From Acidobacteriota bacterium (GTDB lineage Bacteria > Acidobacteriota > Terriglobia > Terriglobales > Acidobacteriaceae), in NCBI GenBank assembly GCA_003225055.1, contig QIAU01000126.1:1-64000 (forward strand): 64,000 bases of DNA. Reading direction: 5' to 3'. Every line of letters starts with the position of its first letter. Position 1 is the stretch's first letter. Of the stretch, positions 50,744 to 56,099 are shown piece by piece. The position numbers were made by a program, and so were the translations under genes. Under the pieces are notes generated by a model that was not told where the DNA came from, searched no databases, and was given only the letters and a program-made list of their open reading frames with translations.

Positions 50744-51496
50744 TCAGCGGCTTACTTCAAAATTCACCGCCGAACCAGCCGTGATCTTCTGCCCGGCAGT
50801 GGGACTCTGCGACACGATCAAACTCGCCGGCGAAGGCGTCGGTGCGAGGGTTGGCGAAGGCTGATCAGCCGGAGTCTGGCCGGCGGCGGTTAGGGTGACG
50901 GTTCCTACCTGCATCCCCGCGCTCTGCAAGATGTTGGTTACAGATCCCAGCGGCTGGCCGACAAAATTCGGCATCACGTATGCCGGTTGTTCGGGTACGG
51001 CCGTTATCAGCAGGCTGATGCGGGGTGCGGAAACCCCGCTGGAATTTGGCGGCGGGGTTTGGGACAAAACCTGGTCAGCGGGTGAATTGGGTAGGCGAAT
51101 TAGTGCGGTTGCTCCGATGTCTAGGCCGCGGCGCTGGATGTTGATCTCGGCGGCGCGCGGGGTTTGGCCGGTGACATCGGGAATCGCGATTCGCTGCGGT
51201 CCCAAGCTTTGCGCGACGCGCACCTGCCAACCCCGGCGCACCTTGGTTCCGGGGGCGGGGGCCTGGGAGACGATCCGTCCTTCCGGGATGTTGGGACTGT
51301 AGTACTGGCGTTCGACGTCCACGCGTAGACCGTTGGCTGTCGCGGCTTTTTCCGCTTCCACGGGCATCATTCCCACCAGCTTCGGAACTAAGACTTCATG
51401 CCCGTGAATCGCGAGGCGCATGGCCGTCAAGGCCGAAACCAGCGCTACCATCAGGAGTACCAGCGCCAGCATCGCCAGCTTGAAGAACGATTTCAC
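50744..51496 (-). CDS. PASTA-domain membrane protein
   Basis: 250 residues. One N-terminal transmembrane segment (LAMLALVLLMVALVSALTA) followed by three PASTA units: VPKLVGMMPVEAEKAATANG, IPDVTGQTPRAAEINIQRRG and MPNFVGQPLGSVTNILQSAG, each ending in a VSQ(A/S)P or LSQTPP-like strand. PASTA units bind muropeptides and usually sit on serine/threonine kinases or PBPs; here they stand alone. A decayed kinase N-lobe lies about 280 bases upstream on the same strand, so the protein may once have belonged with it. It converges with rsmB. Confidence 0.88.
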   Translation of the reverse strand: MKSFFKLAMLALVLLMVALVSALTAMRLAIHGHEVLVPKLVGMMPVEAEKAATANGLRVDVERQYYSPNIPEGRIVSQAPAPGTKVRRGWQVRVAQSLGPQRIAIPDVTGQTPRAAEINIQRRGLDIGATALIRLPNSPADQVLSQTPPPNSSGVSAPRISLLITAVPEQPAYVMPNFVGQPLGSVTNILQSAGMQVGTVTLTAAGQTPADQPSPTLAPTPSPASLIVSQSPTAGQKITAGSAVNFEVSR

Positions 51497-51778: not shown

Positions 51779-52080
51779 TTAAGCATGTCCGGGATCACTC
51801 CCGGCACGCTGATCCATCATCGGGAAGTCAATGCCGTCCTGCGAGCCGACATCGAAGAGGGAGCAGATGTTGGGGTGGTCCAGCGCGGAACCGTCTTGGC
51901 TTCGCGTTCGAAACGTAGCTTGCGGGCAGGATCAGGGGAGAAATGCGCGGGGAGGATCTTAACGGCAACGGTGCGATCAAGACAGGTGTCGCGGGCGCGG
52001 TACACCCCGCCCATACCGCCCGCGCCGAGCGGCGAGTGAATCCCATAAAGTCCGAGCTTTGTGCTGGTCGCCACAGTCAT
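51779..52080 (-). pseudogene. Serine/threonine protein kinase N-lobe remnant
   Basis: From the ATG at 52080: [40 protein letters not shown] and [13 protein letters not shown] are the glycine-rich loop and VAVK lysine of a PknB-type kinase. In a second frame [20 protein letters not shown] continues the domain, after which the sequence stops at 51779. The rest of the kinase (catalytic HRD and DFG loops) is missing. At least one frameshift is seen. Confidence 0.85.
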
Positions 52081-52161: not shown

Positions 52162-53628
52162 TTAGCGAACAGGCATGCCCGGTTGACTACTGACTTCGAC
52201 TTGCTGGCGGGCGGACCGAGACTCGCTCCCCGCCGGGGCATTGTTCTCCGCCTCCTCACGAATGTGTTTCAGAACGCGCAGGTGAATGCGGTGGATGATA
52301 GCGTCTGACCACCAGCGCCAGTAGGCAGACGGCCAGAGTCCGTGGCGGTACCAGGTGGTGCCTTCGAGCCGAGTCCATCCATTGGGCAGCGGCGTTAACA
52401 GGAATTGTCCGCCGTTGGAGACCAGGAATCCATGCAGGTGCGGCGGCGCGATGTGTGAATACGGAGTCCATTCCTGCATCGGCGCCGGATTGGAGGTTAC
52501 GGAAAACCTCAGCCGGTGTGGCGCGTCCCAGACGTCGATAGGCTCGACAAAGGCGCCCGTAGAGAACACGCAATCGCGTTCTGCGCCAGGACCGCGGCCG
52601 AGCATCTCGGCGCGGATGGGATAGGCGATGCCCACGCGAAACAGCCATTCCGTCGGGGGCGGGATCTCGGAGAAAGCGATCACATGCTGCCAGACTCTTT
52701 CCGGCGGTGCGTGGACGTCGATGGCCGAACGGACAACGAAATTGGACGGCAGCGGGGCGACTACGTGTTCTGTCCACTGCACGCCGGGAACAAAGATGAG
52801 CAGGACGGAAAGGAACGCCGGGCCACCCTCATGAAACCAGCGGCGCCGCTGCACCAGATAGCCGCAAGCGGCTCCGAACACGGCGAGCGGCAGCGCGATG
52901 GGCATGGCCATGATGAGACAGGCGATGCCCTCGAAAGCGAGTGCCAGCAGGCCCAGGCCCAGCAGCGCGGTGGCCAGGCACGCAACGCCGACACAGCCGC
53001 CGAGGCTGCGTGGCTGGCGCATCCCGTAAATCAGCGCCGCGGCGAATCCTATTGTGAACGGCAGCGCCACAAATAGGCCCCAGCCGTAGTTCATTAGCAT
53101 TCGTACCCCGAGCAGCACCATGCCGAGTCCGACCGGAACCGTAATCAGCAACGCGACCGCAGCACTTCCCAGGGCGCCTTCGGGAAGTATCTGCGTGAGG
53201 TACGGGCGCTGCGGCCATTTCGCCTTCTGCTCGGTAAGCGGAAGCTCTCTTTCCGGCAACAGGCAAAGTACAAGGAAAAACAACAGGTTGAGAAATGGGA
53301 CAAAAAACAGCGCAACCAGCTGCGGCGGGAGCCTAGCACTGCGCAGACGTTTCATCGTCAATACCACGCCCACCCAGATGAAAGGAAGCGCGAGCGTCAC
53401 CATGGTTTCAAGGAACCCAGCCTCTTTGCTGCGCAGGTCAGTAATGCGGGCAACGTCGCGCACCGGCACCCAATAATTGAAAAGCTCCCAGCGTCGATGA
53501 AAACCGTAAAAGGAAAGCAGGCGATCCAGGTTGTGCTTGAGGGCAAAGCCCACCAACCCGACCAGAGCATAGGTCGCGCGGTCAATCGTTCCACTTGGGC
53601 GCCATAGGTCGGCGAATGTGATCTTCAT
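52162..53628 (-). CDS. Membrane protein with DUF805-like N-terminus and SRPBCC C-terminus
   Basis: 488 residues. The first ~300 residues hold about eight hydrophobic segments (ATYALVGLVGFALKHNLDRL, FLVLCLLPERE and others) with a DUF805-like beginning. From about residue 300 a helix-grip SRPBCC / polyketide-cyclase-like domain follows: VVRSAIDVHAPPERVWQHVI, RFSVTSNPAPMQEW and WTRLEGTTWYRHGLWPSAYW. The two parts in one polypeptide are unusual. It is the last gene of the GbsR-DCC operon (22-base gap) and presumably binds a small hydrophobic ligand at the membrane. Confidence 0.75.
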   Translation of the reverse strand: MKITFADLWRPSGTIDRATYALVGLVGFALKHNLDRLLSFYGFHRRWELFNYWVPVRDVARITDLRSKEAGFLETMVTLALPFIWVGVVLTMKRLRSARLPPQLVALFFVPFLNLLFFLVLCLLPERELPLTEQKAKWPQRPYLTQILPEGALGSAAVALLITVPVGLGMVLLGVRMLMNYGWGLFVALPFTIGFAAALIYGMRQPRSLGGCVGVACLATALLGLGLLALAFEGIACLIMAMPIALPLAVFGAACGYLVQRRRWFHEGGPAFLSVLLIFVPGVQWTEHVVAPLPSNFVVRSAIDVHAPPERVWQHVIAFSEIPPPTEWLFRVGIAYPIRAEMLGRGPGAERDCVFSTGAFVEPIDVWDAPHRLRFSVTSNPAPMQEWTPYSHIAPPHLHGFLVSNGGQFLLTPLPNGWTRLEGTTWYRHGLWPSAYWRWWSDAIIHRIHLRVLKHIREEAENNAPAGSESRSARQQVEVSSQPGMPVR

Positions 53629-53650
53629 AAAGAATCCTCCCCGAAGTTGC

Positions 53651-54070
53651 TCAACCGCCCAAGCGGGCCTGGTTCATTGGGCAATGCGGCGCCGGACACC
53701 TCCAGCGCCGCGCTCCCCACTGGTATCCGGCTCGCAGGACGAACATCATTCCGGGAATTCCCGACACCCAGACCAGTGGGCGCGCCCACCACAATTCGTG
53801 AGCCACGGCGAGCAGGGCGTCGGCGCCGGAGTATTGACTGCCGTCCTCGCCCACAAAGCGGATGGCGCGCAGCAATTCATCGGGCGAGAGTCCGAGCAGG
53901 GCTGCGACTCGCGGGTCTTGCAGCGGAGCCACAGCCAGGCGGCAACGTTTCATGGGCCGTGCTAACCACCGCGCAATCCGAGTACAGAACTCGCAGTCGG
54001 CGTCGAAGAAAAGCCATCCGCGGGCGTGGCGTCCTTTGCTGTCCGTCAGTTCTGATGCGAGCGAGATCAT
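53651..54070 (-). CDS. DCC-family thiol-disulfide oxidoreductase
   Basis: 139 residues. [20 protein letters not shown] carries the DxxCxxC motif of DUF393/DCC proteins, short thioredoxin-like redox proteins. [16 protein letters not shown] and [20 protein letters not shown] are family features. Start overlaps the GbsR stop by 4 bases, so they are translationally coupled. Confidence 0.88.
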
Positions 54071-54612
54071 GGCTCCCTCTGCTTGTTTCCTGTGCTGAAG
54101 AACGACTTCAATCTTCCGCGCAACCGGGCTATCCCCTTGAGTGTGTCGCTCGGCAGGTTTACGAGTTCTTCGAACAGGCCGGATGTGGTCGTGAGGAATC
54201 CCAGCATCTCTTGCAGTCGTTCACGGGTGTAGGCGCTGCCCGCTCCGGCTTTTTTCAGCTGGTTGACACACTCCTGTACGACGCGCAGGGTTGGATCAAT
54301 CTCACGGCGCTTCCGCTCTTCGGCAACGATCCGGAAAATCTCCCAGACATTTTTAACGGATTCGAAATGGTCTCTGCGGTCACCCAGCACGTGCACCAGG
54401 CGGACGATTCCCCAGCCTTGCAACTCGCGCAGACTGGTACTTACGTTCGACCGCGCCACGGCTAAGGTGCTGGCAATTTCCTCCGCATGGAGAGCCCGGG
54501 GTGAGATGTACAGCAGCGCATGCACCTGGGCCACAGTGCGGTTGATGCCCCAGCGGGTTCCCATTTCGCCCCAGTGGAGGATGAATCTTTGTTCAATCGA
54601 CGAAAGCGACAT
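54067..54612 (-). CDS. GbsR/MarR-family transcriptional regulator
   Basis: 181 residues. Winged [23 protein letters not shown]-like opening ([20 protein letters not shown]), [20 protein letters not shown] and [20 protein letters not shown], the GbsR subgroup pattern; members respond to choline or osmotic signals. Directly upstream lies a 20-bp inverted repeat on the promoter side, a likely autoregulatory operator. The ribosome-binding AAAGGA is about 11 bases before the ATG. Confidence 0.92.
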
Positions 54613-54628
54613 GGGGGTTCATTCCTTT

Positions 54629-54648
54629 ATTTCTGTATTAACAGAAAT
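54629..54648. promoter_or_regulatory. GbsR operator, perfect inverted repeat
   Basis: ATTTCTGTATTAACAGAAAT: 8-bp arms around ATTA, 17 bases upstream of the GbsR start. The spacing and symmetry fit a dimeric MarR-type repressor site; autoregulation is inferred. Confidence 0.7.
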
Positions 54649-54771
54649 TACAGCATAGAAGTAAGAGACGGTCAAATGCCCTCGTATGCCCTCGTATGTA
54701 GGAGATGGCCCGGACTTTCACGATCGGTGAATGCAATTCTAAAGTCGTCGTCCTGACAAGAGCGTCAGCTC

Positions 54772-54908: not shown

Positions 54909-56099
54909 ATGCTGGATGAATCTCCCAAATCGGCGACCGGGTATTTAGCTCTGGTGGATGGGACCATTTATGCGAGTCCGACGGAAGCACCCATCGCCGG
55001 AGGGGTGGTTCTCATCCAGGACGAAAAGATCGCCGCCGTGGCACGCCGGACCCAGGTGCAGGTTCCTTCAACCGCGCAAGTACTAGATTGTTCGGGGGGC
55101 ACGATTACGGCGGGGTTTTGGAACAATCATGTTCACTTCTTTGAAAGAAAGTGGGCAAATGCGGCGGAGATCCCGGCCGCCGAACTCAGTCGCCAGATTC
55201 AGGACATGGTCACACGGTACGGGTTTACCAGCGTGTTTGACCTGTCGTCCATGTGGGAGAACACGCGGCGGTTGCGGGAGCGTATCGAGTTGGGGGAACT
55301 GCCGGGGCCGACAATTCGCACGACCGGCGAAGGCCTGATTCCCCCGGGCGCGGTTCCCTCCGAGGCAGTTCTCGGCGTTCTGGGGGTTATGAACTTTCCC
55401 GCTCCAGAGATCGCGGACGCTTCGCAAGCGACGGCGGCAGCCAGGAAGCTCCTGGAGAAAGGCGTGGACGGGATCAAGCTATTCGCATCCTCGCCGCGCA
55501 GCACGCCCCTCCCGGAGAGCGCGATTCGAGCCGCGGTGTATGAGGCGCATAAGGCGGGCAAGCCTGTCTTTGTTCATCCCAATAGCGGCGCGGATGTGCT
55601 GACGGCGGTTCGAGCTGGCGTCGACATTGTCGCTCACACCACTCCGTACTCGGGCGACTGGGACCGATCAATTCTCACCACCATGCAAGAGCGAAAAGTG
55701 GCGCTCATACCGACACTGAAGATCTGGCTGGAATTCATGCGCCACGACCGCATGTCGGCGCAGGAGAAGGCGGCCAAGGCTGAAACCGGGCAATTGCGCG
55801 CCTGGGTTGACGCGGGTGGGACGGTTCTGTTCGGAACCGATGTGAGCTATATCAACTACGATCCCAGCGACGAGTACGCCTTGATGGCGGAAGCGGGAAT
55901 GAGCTTTCGCCAGATTCTCGCTTCCCTGACTACCGCGCCCGCCGAGCGGTTTGGTGATTCGAAACGGGGACGAATTGCGCCAGGTTTGCAAGCTGATCTT
56001 GTCGTCTTGAAGGGCGACCCTGCCAGAAACATCCGAGCCCTGGCTAGTGTGCAGCAGACGGTGCGGGCTGGAAGAATTATCTATCGAGCGAGCGACTGA
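54909..56099 (+). CDS. Amidohydrolase-family protein
   Basis: 396 residues. Metal-site motifs in order: NNHVHF (HxH), VDGIKLFA (possible carboxylated Lys), KPVFVHPNS, DIVAHTTPY and LFGTDVSYI (Asp). C-terminal GRIAPGLQADLVVLKGDP closes the composite domain. Substrate unknown (imidazolonepropionase-like branch). Flanked by two copies of the GGCCGTTCAGGATGA repeat. Confidence 0.9.
   Translation: MLDESPKSATGYLALVDGTIYASPTEAPIAGGVVLIQDEKIAAVARRTQVQVPSTAQVLDCSGGTITAGFWNNHVHFFERKWANAAEIPAAELSRQIQDMVTRYGFTSVFDLSSMWENTRRLRERIELGELPGPTIRTTGEGLIPPGAVPSEAVLGVLGVMNFPAPEIADASQATAAARKLLEKGVDGIKLFASSPRSTPLPESAIRAAVYEAHKAGKPVFVHPNSGADVLTAVRAGVDIVAHTTPYSGDWDRSILTTMQERKVALIPTLKIWLEFMRHDRMSAQEKAAKAETGQLRAWVDAGGTVLFGTDVSYINYDPSDEYALMAEAGMSFRQILASLTTAPAERFGDSKRGRIAPGLQADLVVLKGDPARNIRALASVQQTVRAGRIIYRASD

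Follow-up and report, generated by a model that had tools for sequence, protein, structure and literature searches.

The GbsR-type MarR proteins CydE (Alishewanella sp. WH16-1) and CioR (Chromobacterium violaceum) repress cytochrome bd operons and are encoded together with the quinol oxidase genes under their control. Two CydE sites have been footprinted, the first being TATTTCAGAAATTTCTGAAAGTTCA (PMC6096048), and CioR also represses its own operon (PMC11837568). A 2018 survey distinguished four kinds of neighbourhood for GbsR-type genes (osmoprotectant uptake, glycine betaine synthesis, cytochrome bd, other transporters) and left 73 of 179 genes without a class (PMC6207618). Here we analyse an operon in 64,000 nucleotides (nt) of the Acidobacteriota contig QIAU01000126.1, a stretch that we call the window, from an assembly of 7.41 Mb. 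On its minus strand, the gene of a GbsR-type MarR regulator comes first, then that of a thiol-disulfide protein of the DCC type and that of a membrane/SRPBCC protein of 488 aa (Table 1). Both the regulator and its operator belong to a known kind, because the operator core resembles a CydE footprint; the cargo of DCC and membrane/SRPBCC proteins is new for the GbsR-type family.

Table 1. Features of the operon and its upstream region, in window positions (aa, amino acids; pLDDT, predicted local distance difference test)
Feature	Position	Strand	Details
Regulator, GbsR-type MarR family, first operon gene, proposed autorepressor	54067..54612	-	181 aa
DCC1-like thiol-disulfide protein	53651..54070	-	139 aa; CxxC motif DADCEFC
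Membrane/SRPBCC protein	52162..53628	-	488 aa; homologues across many phyla
Membrane part, residues 1-295	52744..53628	-	about eight long helices in an AlphaFold2 model; mean pLDDT 83.2 folded alone
SRPBCC domain, residues ~294-465	52234..52749	-	placed by structural alignment of the whole-protein model, mean pLDDT 77.5
Core operator (predicted), ATTTCTGT-ATTA-ACAGAAAT	54629..54648	.	8-nt inverted repeat, 4-nt centre
Extended dyad, family consensus CTGTAATTTCTGT-N4-ACAGAAATTACAG	54624..54653	.	consensus of 50 distinct upstream regions
Candidate promoter, TTGACC 54670-54675, 17 nt, TGTAAT 54647-54652	54647..54675	-	placed by conservation

Recurrence of the operon in relatives

An earlier note, made from the letters of this DNA, had described three coupled genes, and this observation holds, on the minus strand: the regulator and DCC frames overlap by 4 bases, and a gap of 22 bases separates the DCC gene from the membrane/SRPBCC gene. 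The note had also proposed a survey of genome context. A search of a named genome collection gave 244 stretches with a relative of the membrane/SRPBCC protein. We examined the best 80, the titles of which point to Acidobacteria, Verrucomicrobia, Planctomycetes, Cyanobacteria-like lineages, Rhodothermia, Bacteroidetes groups and others. The three genes do recur together: a regulator gene lies upstream of the membrane gene at 32 of the 80 loci, with a DCC gene as well at 20 of these 32. The DCC gene is thus optional in the operon. Where at least 3.5 kb of upstream DNA was present, the regulator was found at 12 of 19 loci from Acidobacteria, 13 of 20 from Verrucomicrobia, 1 of 6 from Planctomycetes and at the one mislabelled record. 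These groups were assigned from record titles, some of which seem to be wrong (those with the names Akkermansia and Klebsiella); in the protein tree L099 groups with Verrucomicrobia. Some contigs were found twice (L010 and L046, L009 and L045, L015 and L094, L016 and L101).

In a tree of 91 membrane/SRPBCC proteins, 34 of the 35 regulator-linked members fall in one branch of 54 rows, which is not strongly supported (SH-aLRT 85). The linkage label requires 12 changes on this tree against a shuffled mean of 28.1, a value as low being reached in 0 of 500 shuffles, a figure that near-copies help. Proteins with about 330 matched residues or fewer, L013 among them, are omitted. Since the linked proteins cluster, linkage to the regulator is a lineage trait superimposed on a wider family.

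We also surveyed 150 genomes of the same taxonomic family, drawn evenly from a larger group. The membrane/SRPBCC protein had matches in 30, of which 17 were at E ≤ 1e-30 (in G091 as fragments); the only other same-genus genome listed, G059, lacks both this protein and the regulator. At E ≤ 1e-30 the regulator was found in 24 of the 150 genomes and both proteins in 9 (Fisher p 1.7e-4, which ignores kinship and uses a threshold chosen after the list had been seen). Counting all 30 genomes that match the membrane protein, the regulator is also present in 12.

Membrane genes without a regulator keep varied company. Ten neighbours at seven such loci share no common theme: they include HSP70-like, TPR, histidine kinase, D-serine dehydratase-like, SIR2-like, VanY and DnaB proteins, and three are without a match. 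In an acidobacterial metagenome-assembled genome, the HSP70-like gene stands directly upstream of the membrane gene (L080:3284-5959, +), and L074 and L078 hold open frames of similar size. At the regulator-less locus L057, the DCC gene found nearby starts at a contig end.

The regulator and its predicted operator

The regulator matches PF12802 (MarR_2) with 31.9 bits, above the Pfam cut-off of 27. Its closest solved relative by sequence is MJ223 (1ku9; E 5.9e-12, or 5.3e-15 with a profile), the template used for GbsR-type proteins (PMC6207618). A MarR-type winged helix and this best relative place it in the GbsR-type subfamily, as does the inverted-repeat operator predicted at its promoter. 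The earlier note had called this 20-bp inverted repeat a perfect operator; the 8-nt arms do match perfectly, but the central 4 bases do not. In the window the extended dyad is imperfect on the regulator-proximal side, and the second hexamer of the candidate promoter, TGTAAT, overlaps the operator edge. Across the 50 upstream regions of the consensus, TTGA or TTGC starts 24-28 nt before the operator in 43, and the second promoter hexamer would therefore sit at the dyad edge. This consensus omits L010 and L153, which are duplicates, and L158, whose twin lies outside the set and whose site scores 14/14.

The palindrome recurs with the regulator. Of 37 regulator genes, 36 are preceded within 150 nt by a site that matches the consensus at 12 or more of 14 positions (35 of 36 when L010 and L046, one contig, are counted once), the miss being L103, which is cut by a contig end. 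Neither of the refutations that the earlier note had named, genes not kept together or a palindrome absent from relatives, was thus borne out. Shuffles of each region average about 8/14 with maxima of 10-12, so a lone 12/14 site could arise by chance but the series could not. Over 919 kb of loci, 46 sites reach 12/14 or more, against 2 in one mononucleotide shuffle. Of 58 loci without a regulator, four carry a site ahead of the membrane gene, at a distance of 69 to 257 nt; three of the four are independent (L009 and L045 being one contig). When the family's other regulator relatives are added, 50 of 55 loci carry a site of at least 11/14.

In the window genome the regulator has no paralogue at E ≤ 0.001, and the motif TTTCTGT-N4-ACAGAAA has one zero-mismatch copy. 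With up to 2 mismatches there are 7 sites, the operator included, against 22 for a reversed-pattern control. As this is fewer than the control, no wider regulon is visible, and we dropped the idea of a large one.

It could be argued that the palindrome belongs to another transcription factor and that the neighbouring regulator acts elsewhere. The link rests on sequence comparison; four of the 55 regulator loci (L161, L166, L168 and L171), plus the cut L103, lack a site of at least 11/14; and among 15 genomes with the membrane protein, the exact motif TTCTGT-N4-ACAGAA is missing from two of the seven that bear the regulator (G023 and G144). Those two regulators nevertheless have sites at 13/14 and 12/14. 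The exact motif occurs in the other five regulator-bearing genomes and in one of the eight regulator-less ones, seven of which have none, and the site goes with the regulator gene in different phyla and with different cargo. Where the genes have come apart, in G082, with regulator and membrane genes on different contigs, one of the two exact sites precedes the membrane gene and the other adjoins the regulator. We consider another owner of the site very improbable.

The operator fits the pattern TTTCWG-N6-CWGAAA of the first CydE footprint. Its core, TTTCTG-N6-CAGAAA, agrees with the CydE core TTTCAG-N6-CTGAAA at 10 of 12 positions, a likeness reached by 170 of 200,000 shuffles of the CydE footprint, and the A/T variant TTTCAG-N6-CTGAAA itself precedes the regulator of L020. 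We found no likeness between the window operator and the second CydE site. An analogy with CrtR, an isoprenoid-responsive MarR protein, was rejected, as the TTAA motif given for it differs from the window operator.

Two readings of the regulator's signal follow from its relatives. The earlier note had suggested checking transcription under osmotic or choline stress; on such a reading the operon would be osmoprotective, with a regulator sensing choline or glycine betaine in the manner of Bacillus GbsR/CudC. GbsR, OpcR and OpuAR, the choline/betaine repressors of Bacillus, do belong to the same subfamily, near which the similarity to MJ223 places our regulator; the Bacillus gbsAB operator is likewise an inverted repeat with a 4-bp spacer (PMC7396694); and the conserved aromatic residues W90, F93, F139 and F/Y83 might form a pocket. 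Against this, the regulator scores 43.9 bits with the CudC choline-regulator model, an NCBIfam equivalog with a cut-off of 218, no osmolyte gene was seen among the annotated neighbours, and the operator resembles that of CydE. The aromatic cage for choline is reported by Ronzheimer 2018 to be absent from the other GbsR groups and from CydE (PMC6207618). An osmotic role is thus not supported, and we think it very improbable.

The second reading makes the operon a respiratory or oxidative-stress module, in which a CydE/CioR-like regulator controls cargo that shields membrane lipids or the quinone pool from redox or metal stress. The CydE-like operator architecture agrees with it, as do the redox-type cargo (DCC, and in some loci SDR and TIGR01777 proteins) and the precedent of CydE and CioR, which are encoded with the oxidase genes that they repress, CioR repressing itself as well (PMC6096048, PMC11837568). 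Also consistent are His74, His82 and Cys115 of the regulator, conserved in 54, 50 and 49 of 55 sequences and candidates for sensing residues. Yet no cyd (cytochrome bd) genes stand beside the operon among the window neighbours examined, and the described signals differ, CydE answering to sulfate and CioR to metals and cyanide exposure. The signal is not transferable by homology, because those of CydE and CioR already differ. We think this module, a narrower form of the model proposed below, rather unlikely as it stands.

The DCC and membrane/SRPBCC proteins and other cargo

The DCC protein matches PF04134 with 53.1 bits (cut-off 27.8), and its CxxC motif is present in all 27 sequences that cover the position, the window's included. 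The first ~125 residues of the membrane part are DUF805-like. On the window protein the scores of DUF805 (17.5 bits, cut-off 25.7) and Polyketide_cyc2 (19.7 bits, cut-off 27.4) lie below their cut-offs; at E ≤ 0.1 each profile is found in 14 of 14 aligned family members, window included, with a best DUF805 value of 3.9e-11. The fusion of a membrane part with an SRPBCC domain, as the earlier note had it, is real. A helix-grip SRPBCC fold for residues 294-465 is supported by structural alignment of the predicted model, with VIA-align Z 15.1 to 7tmu_A (root-mean-square deviation 2.4, 135 aligned), 15.1 to BexL (4xrw) and 14.7 to TTHA0849 (2d4r_A), and with Z of about 15 for YPO0625, BexL, TTHA0849 and PYL receptors over some 135-140 residues. 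A PDB sequence search with the membrane/SRPBCC profile gave no match at E ≤ 1, and Foldseek with the membrane part none at E ≤ 0.001. By mean charge, loops 56 and 78 would lie inside and so would loop 23; these placements conflict in parity and assign no side to the SRPBCC domain.

Shorter relatives of the membrane/SRPBCC protein occur in the same taxonomic family at L024-L036 (open frames of 222-346 aa, 25-35% identity), with no regulator found in the flanks available. In one verrucomicrobial copy of the operon, a DCC1-like domain is fused to an MBOAT_2 acyltransferase-like part (L073:3169-4428, +).

In some verrucomicrobial operons, genes for an extended SDR and a TIGR01777 protein are found around the membrane gene (L073, L083, L084, L096, L107); the TIGR01777 protein of L084 scores 231 against a cut-off of 207. 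With a neighbour rule of more than 30% similarity to the L084 query within 2.5 kb, which misses more distant proteins such as that of L107, recognised by place, TIGR01777 was found near the membrane gene at 10 of the 23 loci from Verrucomicrobia that extend 1.2 kb or more downstream, and at the one mislabelled record. An SDR was seen upstream of the membrane gene at 4 of 27 loci from Verrucomicrobia and at 1 of 29 from Acidobacteria. The window genome has one TIGR01777 protein above the cut-off, on another contig. The three-gene make-up of the earlier note accordingly stands for the window, with two amendments: the DCC gene is not obligatory, and verrucomicrobial relatives extend the module to other oxidoreductases.

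Where regulator relatives do not adjoin a membrane gene, other cargo follows a site that scores 11 to 14 of 14. This cargo may be a DCC protein (L151, L154, L157, L158), an SDR (L160, L162, L163, L170) or a small unassigned protein (L156, L159, L165, L170). A SAM methyltransferase follows directly at L167:578-1489 (-) and at L169:569-1528 (-), the latter with an A/T operator variant, and a YndJ-like protein (L155:3-1004, -; PF14158, 165 bits) lies behind a regulator with a 14/14 operator. At L152, L161, L164, L166, L168 and L171 no cargo of these kinds was recognised. A small family of ~125 aa recurs beside regulators or the membrane gene (L142:6883-7269, L156, L159, L165, L049, L055, L082); its members at L142 and L165 have no Pfam match at E ≤ 0.01, and that of L142 none in NCBIfam.

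Around the operon itself, a gene for a protein with three PASTA stretches lies downstream on the same strand (window 50744-51496, -), with no kinase domain matched in it. Between this gene and the operon is an 87-aa fragment of a Ser/Thr kinase N-lobe (51817-52080, -), PknB-type at E 6.4e-16 yet far under the model cut-off; similar DNA occurs at three other places in the genome (68-70% identity, 187-253 bases), and the fragment looks like a remnant. Divergent from the operon is an amidohydrolase gene (54909-56099, +), near the Xaa-Pro dipeptidase model and far under its cut-off; a gene 25% similar to it also adjoins the regulator in L152.

A proposed autorepressed operon and its place among known systems

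We propose, at about even confidence, that the operon is repressed by its own first gene and serves redox or transfer chemistry, the substrate being a lipid, isoprenoid or quinone-like compound that is soluble in the membrane. The GbsR-type protein, probably as a dimer, would most likely bind the 20-30-bp dyad, which covers the second promoter hexamer and the start region, and would keep its own operon off by blocking the promoter. An inducer or a redox or respiratory signal would release it; such a signal is favoured over choline because of the CydE-like operator and the redox-type cargo. The products, a CxxC thiol-redox DCC protein and a membrane protein bearing an SRPBCC domain for hydrophobic ligands, would then most likely reduce, transfer or repair the compound, alone or with oxidoreductases. 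Possible partners are SDR and TIGR01777 proteins, encoded in the operon in some other phyla, and in the window genome the TIGR01777 protein encoded elsewhere. The earlier note's suggestion of a small regulated membrane system for a hydrophobic or redox-active ligand is a fair reading.

Several observations weigh against this proposal. The membrane protein occurs far more widely than the regulator, which was found at 0 of 13 loci from other phyla with at least 3.5 kb upstream. The operator signal may be general, because regulator relatives have the site before other cargo. Exact sites number 0-2 per genome, no more than in the reversed control (0-2), so that only their places are informative. 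A simple promoter scan did not list the window promoter, which is weaker, and the best structural match of the membrane part (8fed_I; Z 6.1, root-mean-square deviation 4.4, 131 aligned) is not convincing. Among loci with at least 1.2 kb downstream, TIGR01777 was near the membrane gene at none of 28 from Acidobacteria, none of 7 from Planctomycetes and none of 11 from other groups; since acidobacterial loci hardly ever have them, SDR and TIGR01777 genes are a verrucomicrobial feature outside the operon type of the window.

The DCC gene, finally, was not seen at 12 of the 32 regulator-linked loci, nor between regulator and membrane genes in G022, G023, G054 and G144, which would suit a core of regulator and membrane/SRPBCC protein with DCC as a passenger of independent role. 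Against this, DCC recurs at 20 of the 32 loci across Acidobacteria and Verrucomicrobia, and it adjoins regulator relatives without a membrane gene in their flanks (L151, L154, L157, L158, L159). A passenger DCC is possible, if doubtful.

A broader form of our proposal, which we put forward tentatively and would not yet call probable, is a widespread undescribed membrane pathway. In it, a lipid, isoprenoid or quinone would be offered by the SRPBCC membrane protein to a thiol oxidoreductase (DCC) and, in certain lineages, to nicotinamide oxidoreductases (SDR, TIGR01777); in Acidobacteria and Verrucomicrobia the pathway would be under a CydE-like GbsR repressor. If true, this would add a physiological class to the GbsR type beside osmoprotection and cytochrome bd. 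The locus offers a testable predicted operator and a recurring cargo for a GbsR-type branch outside the survey's four classes, and one genetic module that joins the poorly understood DCC, DUF805-like membrane SRPBCC and, in Verrucomicrobia, TIGR01777 proteins. Identifying the ligand, if achieved, would give a functional handle on all three families; among the matches listed from the open-licence literature, no paper offered a bacterial mechanism for TIGR01777 or DCC proteins. A light-induced LitR/CarH cluster, for which a short-chain dehydrogenase and a furan fatty acid synthase are named, was left as a weak analogy, and links of DCC to heliorhodopsin and plastoglobules, each a single mention, were not used.

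The earlier note knew of no described system of this make-up, and none was found in the open-licence papers searched; the main text of the 2018 survey contains none of the words Acidobacteria, Verrucomicrobia and epimerase (PMC6207618). With the DCC1-like family (PF04134) the window protein shares the conserved CxxC, and differs in being encoded in an operon with an SRPBCC membrane protein. Residues 294-465 are predicted to share the fold of the SRPBCC superfamily (TTHA0849, the aromatase/cyclase BexL, PYL receptors, Bet v 1), but unlike those proteins the window domain is fused to an eight-helix membrane part and has many conserved residues of its own. TIGR01777 proteins (YfcH/SDR39U1) and extended SDRs adjoin the membrane gene in some verrucomicrobial loci and not in the window operon. 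As in CydE and CioR, a GbsR-type MarR regulator is encoded with its proposed target genes; whereas their cargo is cydAB or cioAB, that of the window is a DCC and a membrane/SRPBCC protein, outside the four neighbourhood classes described by Ronzheimer 2018 (PMC6207618).

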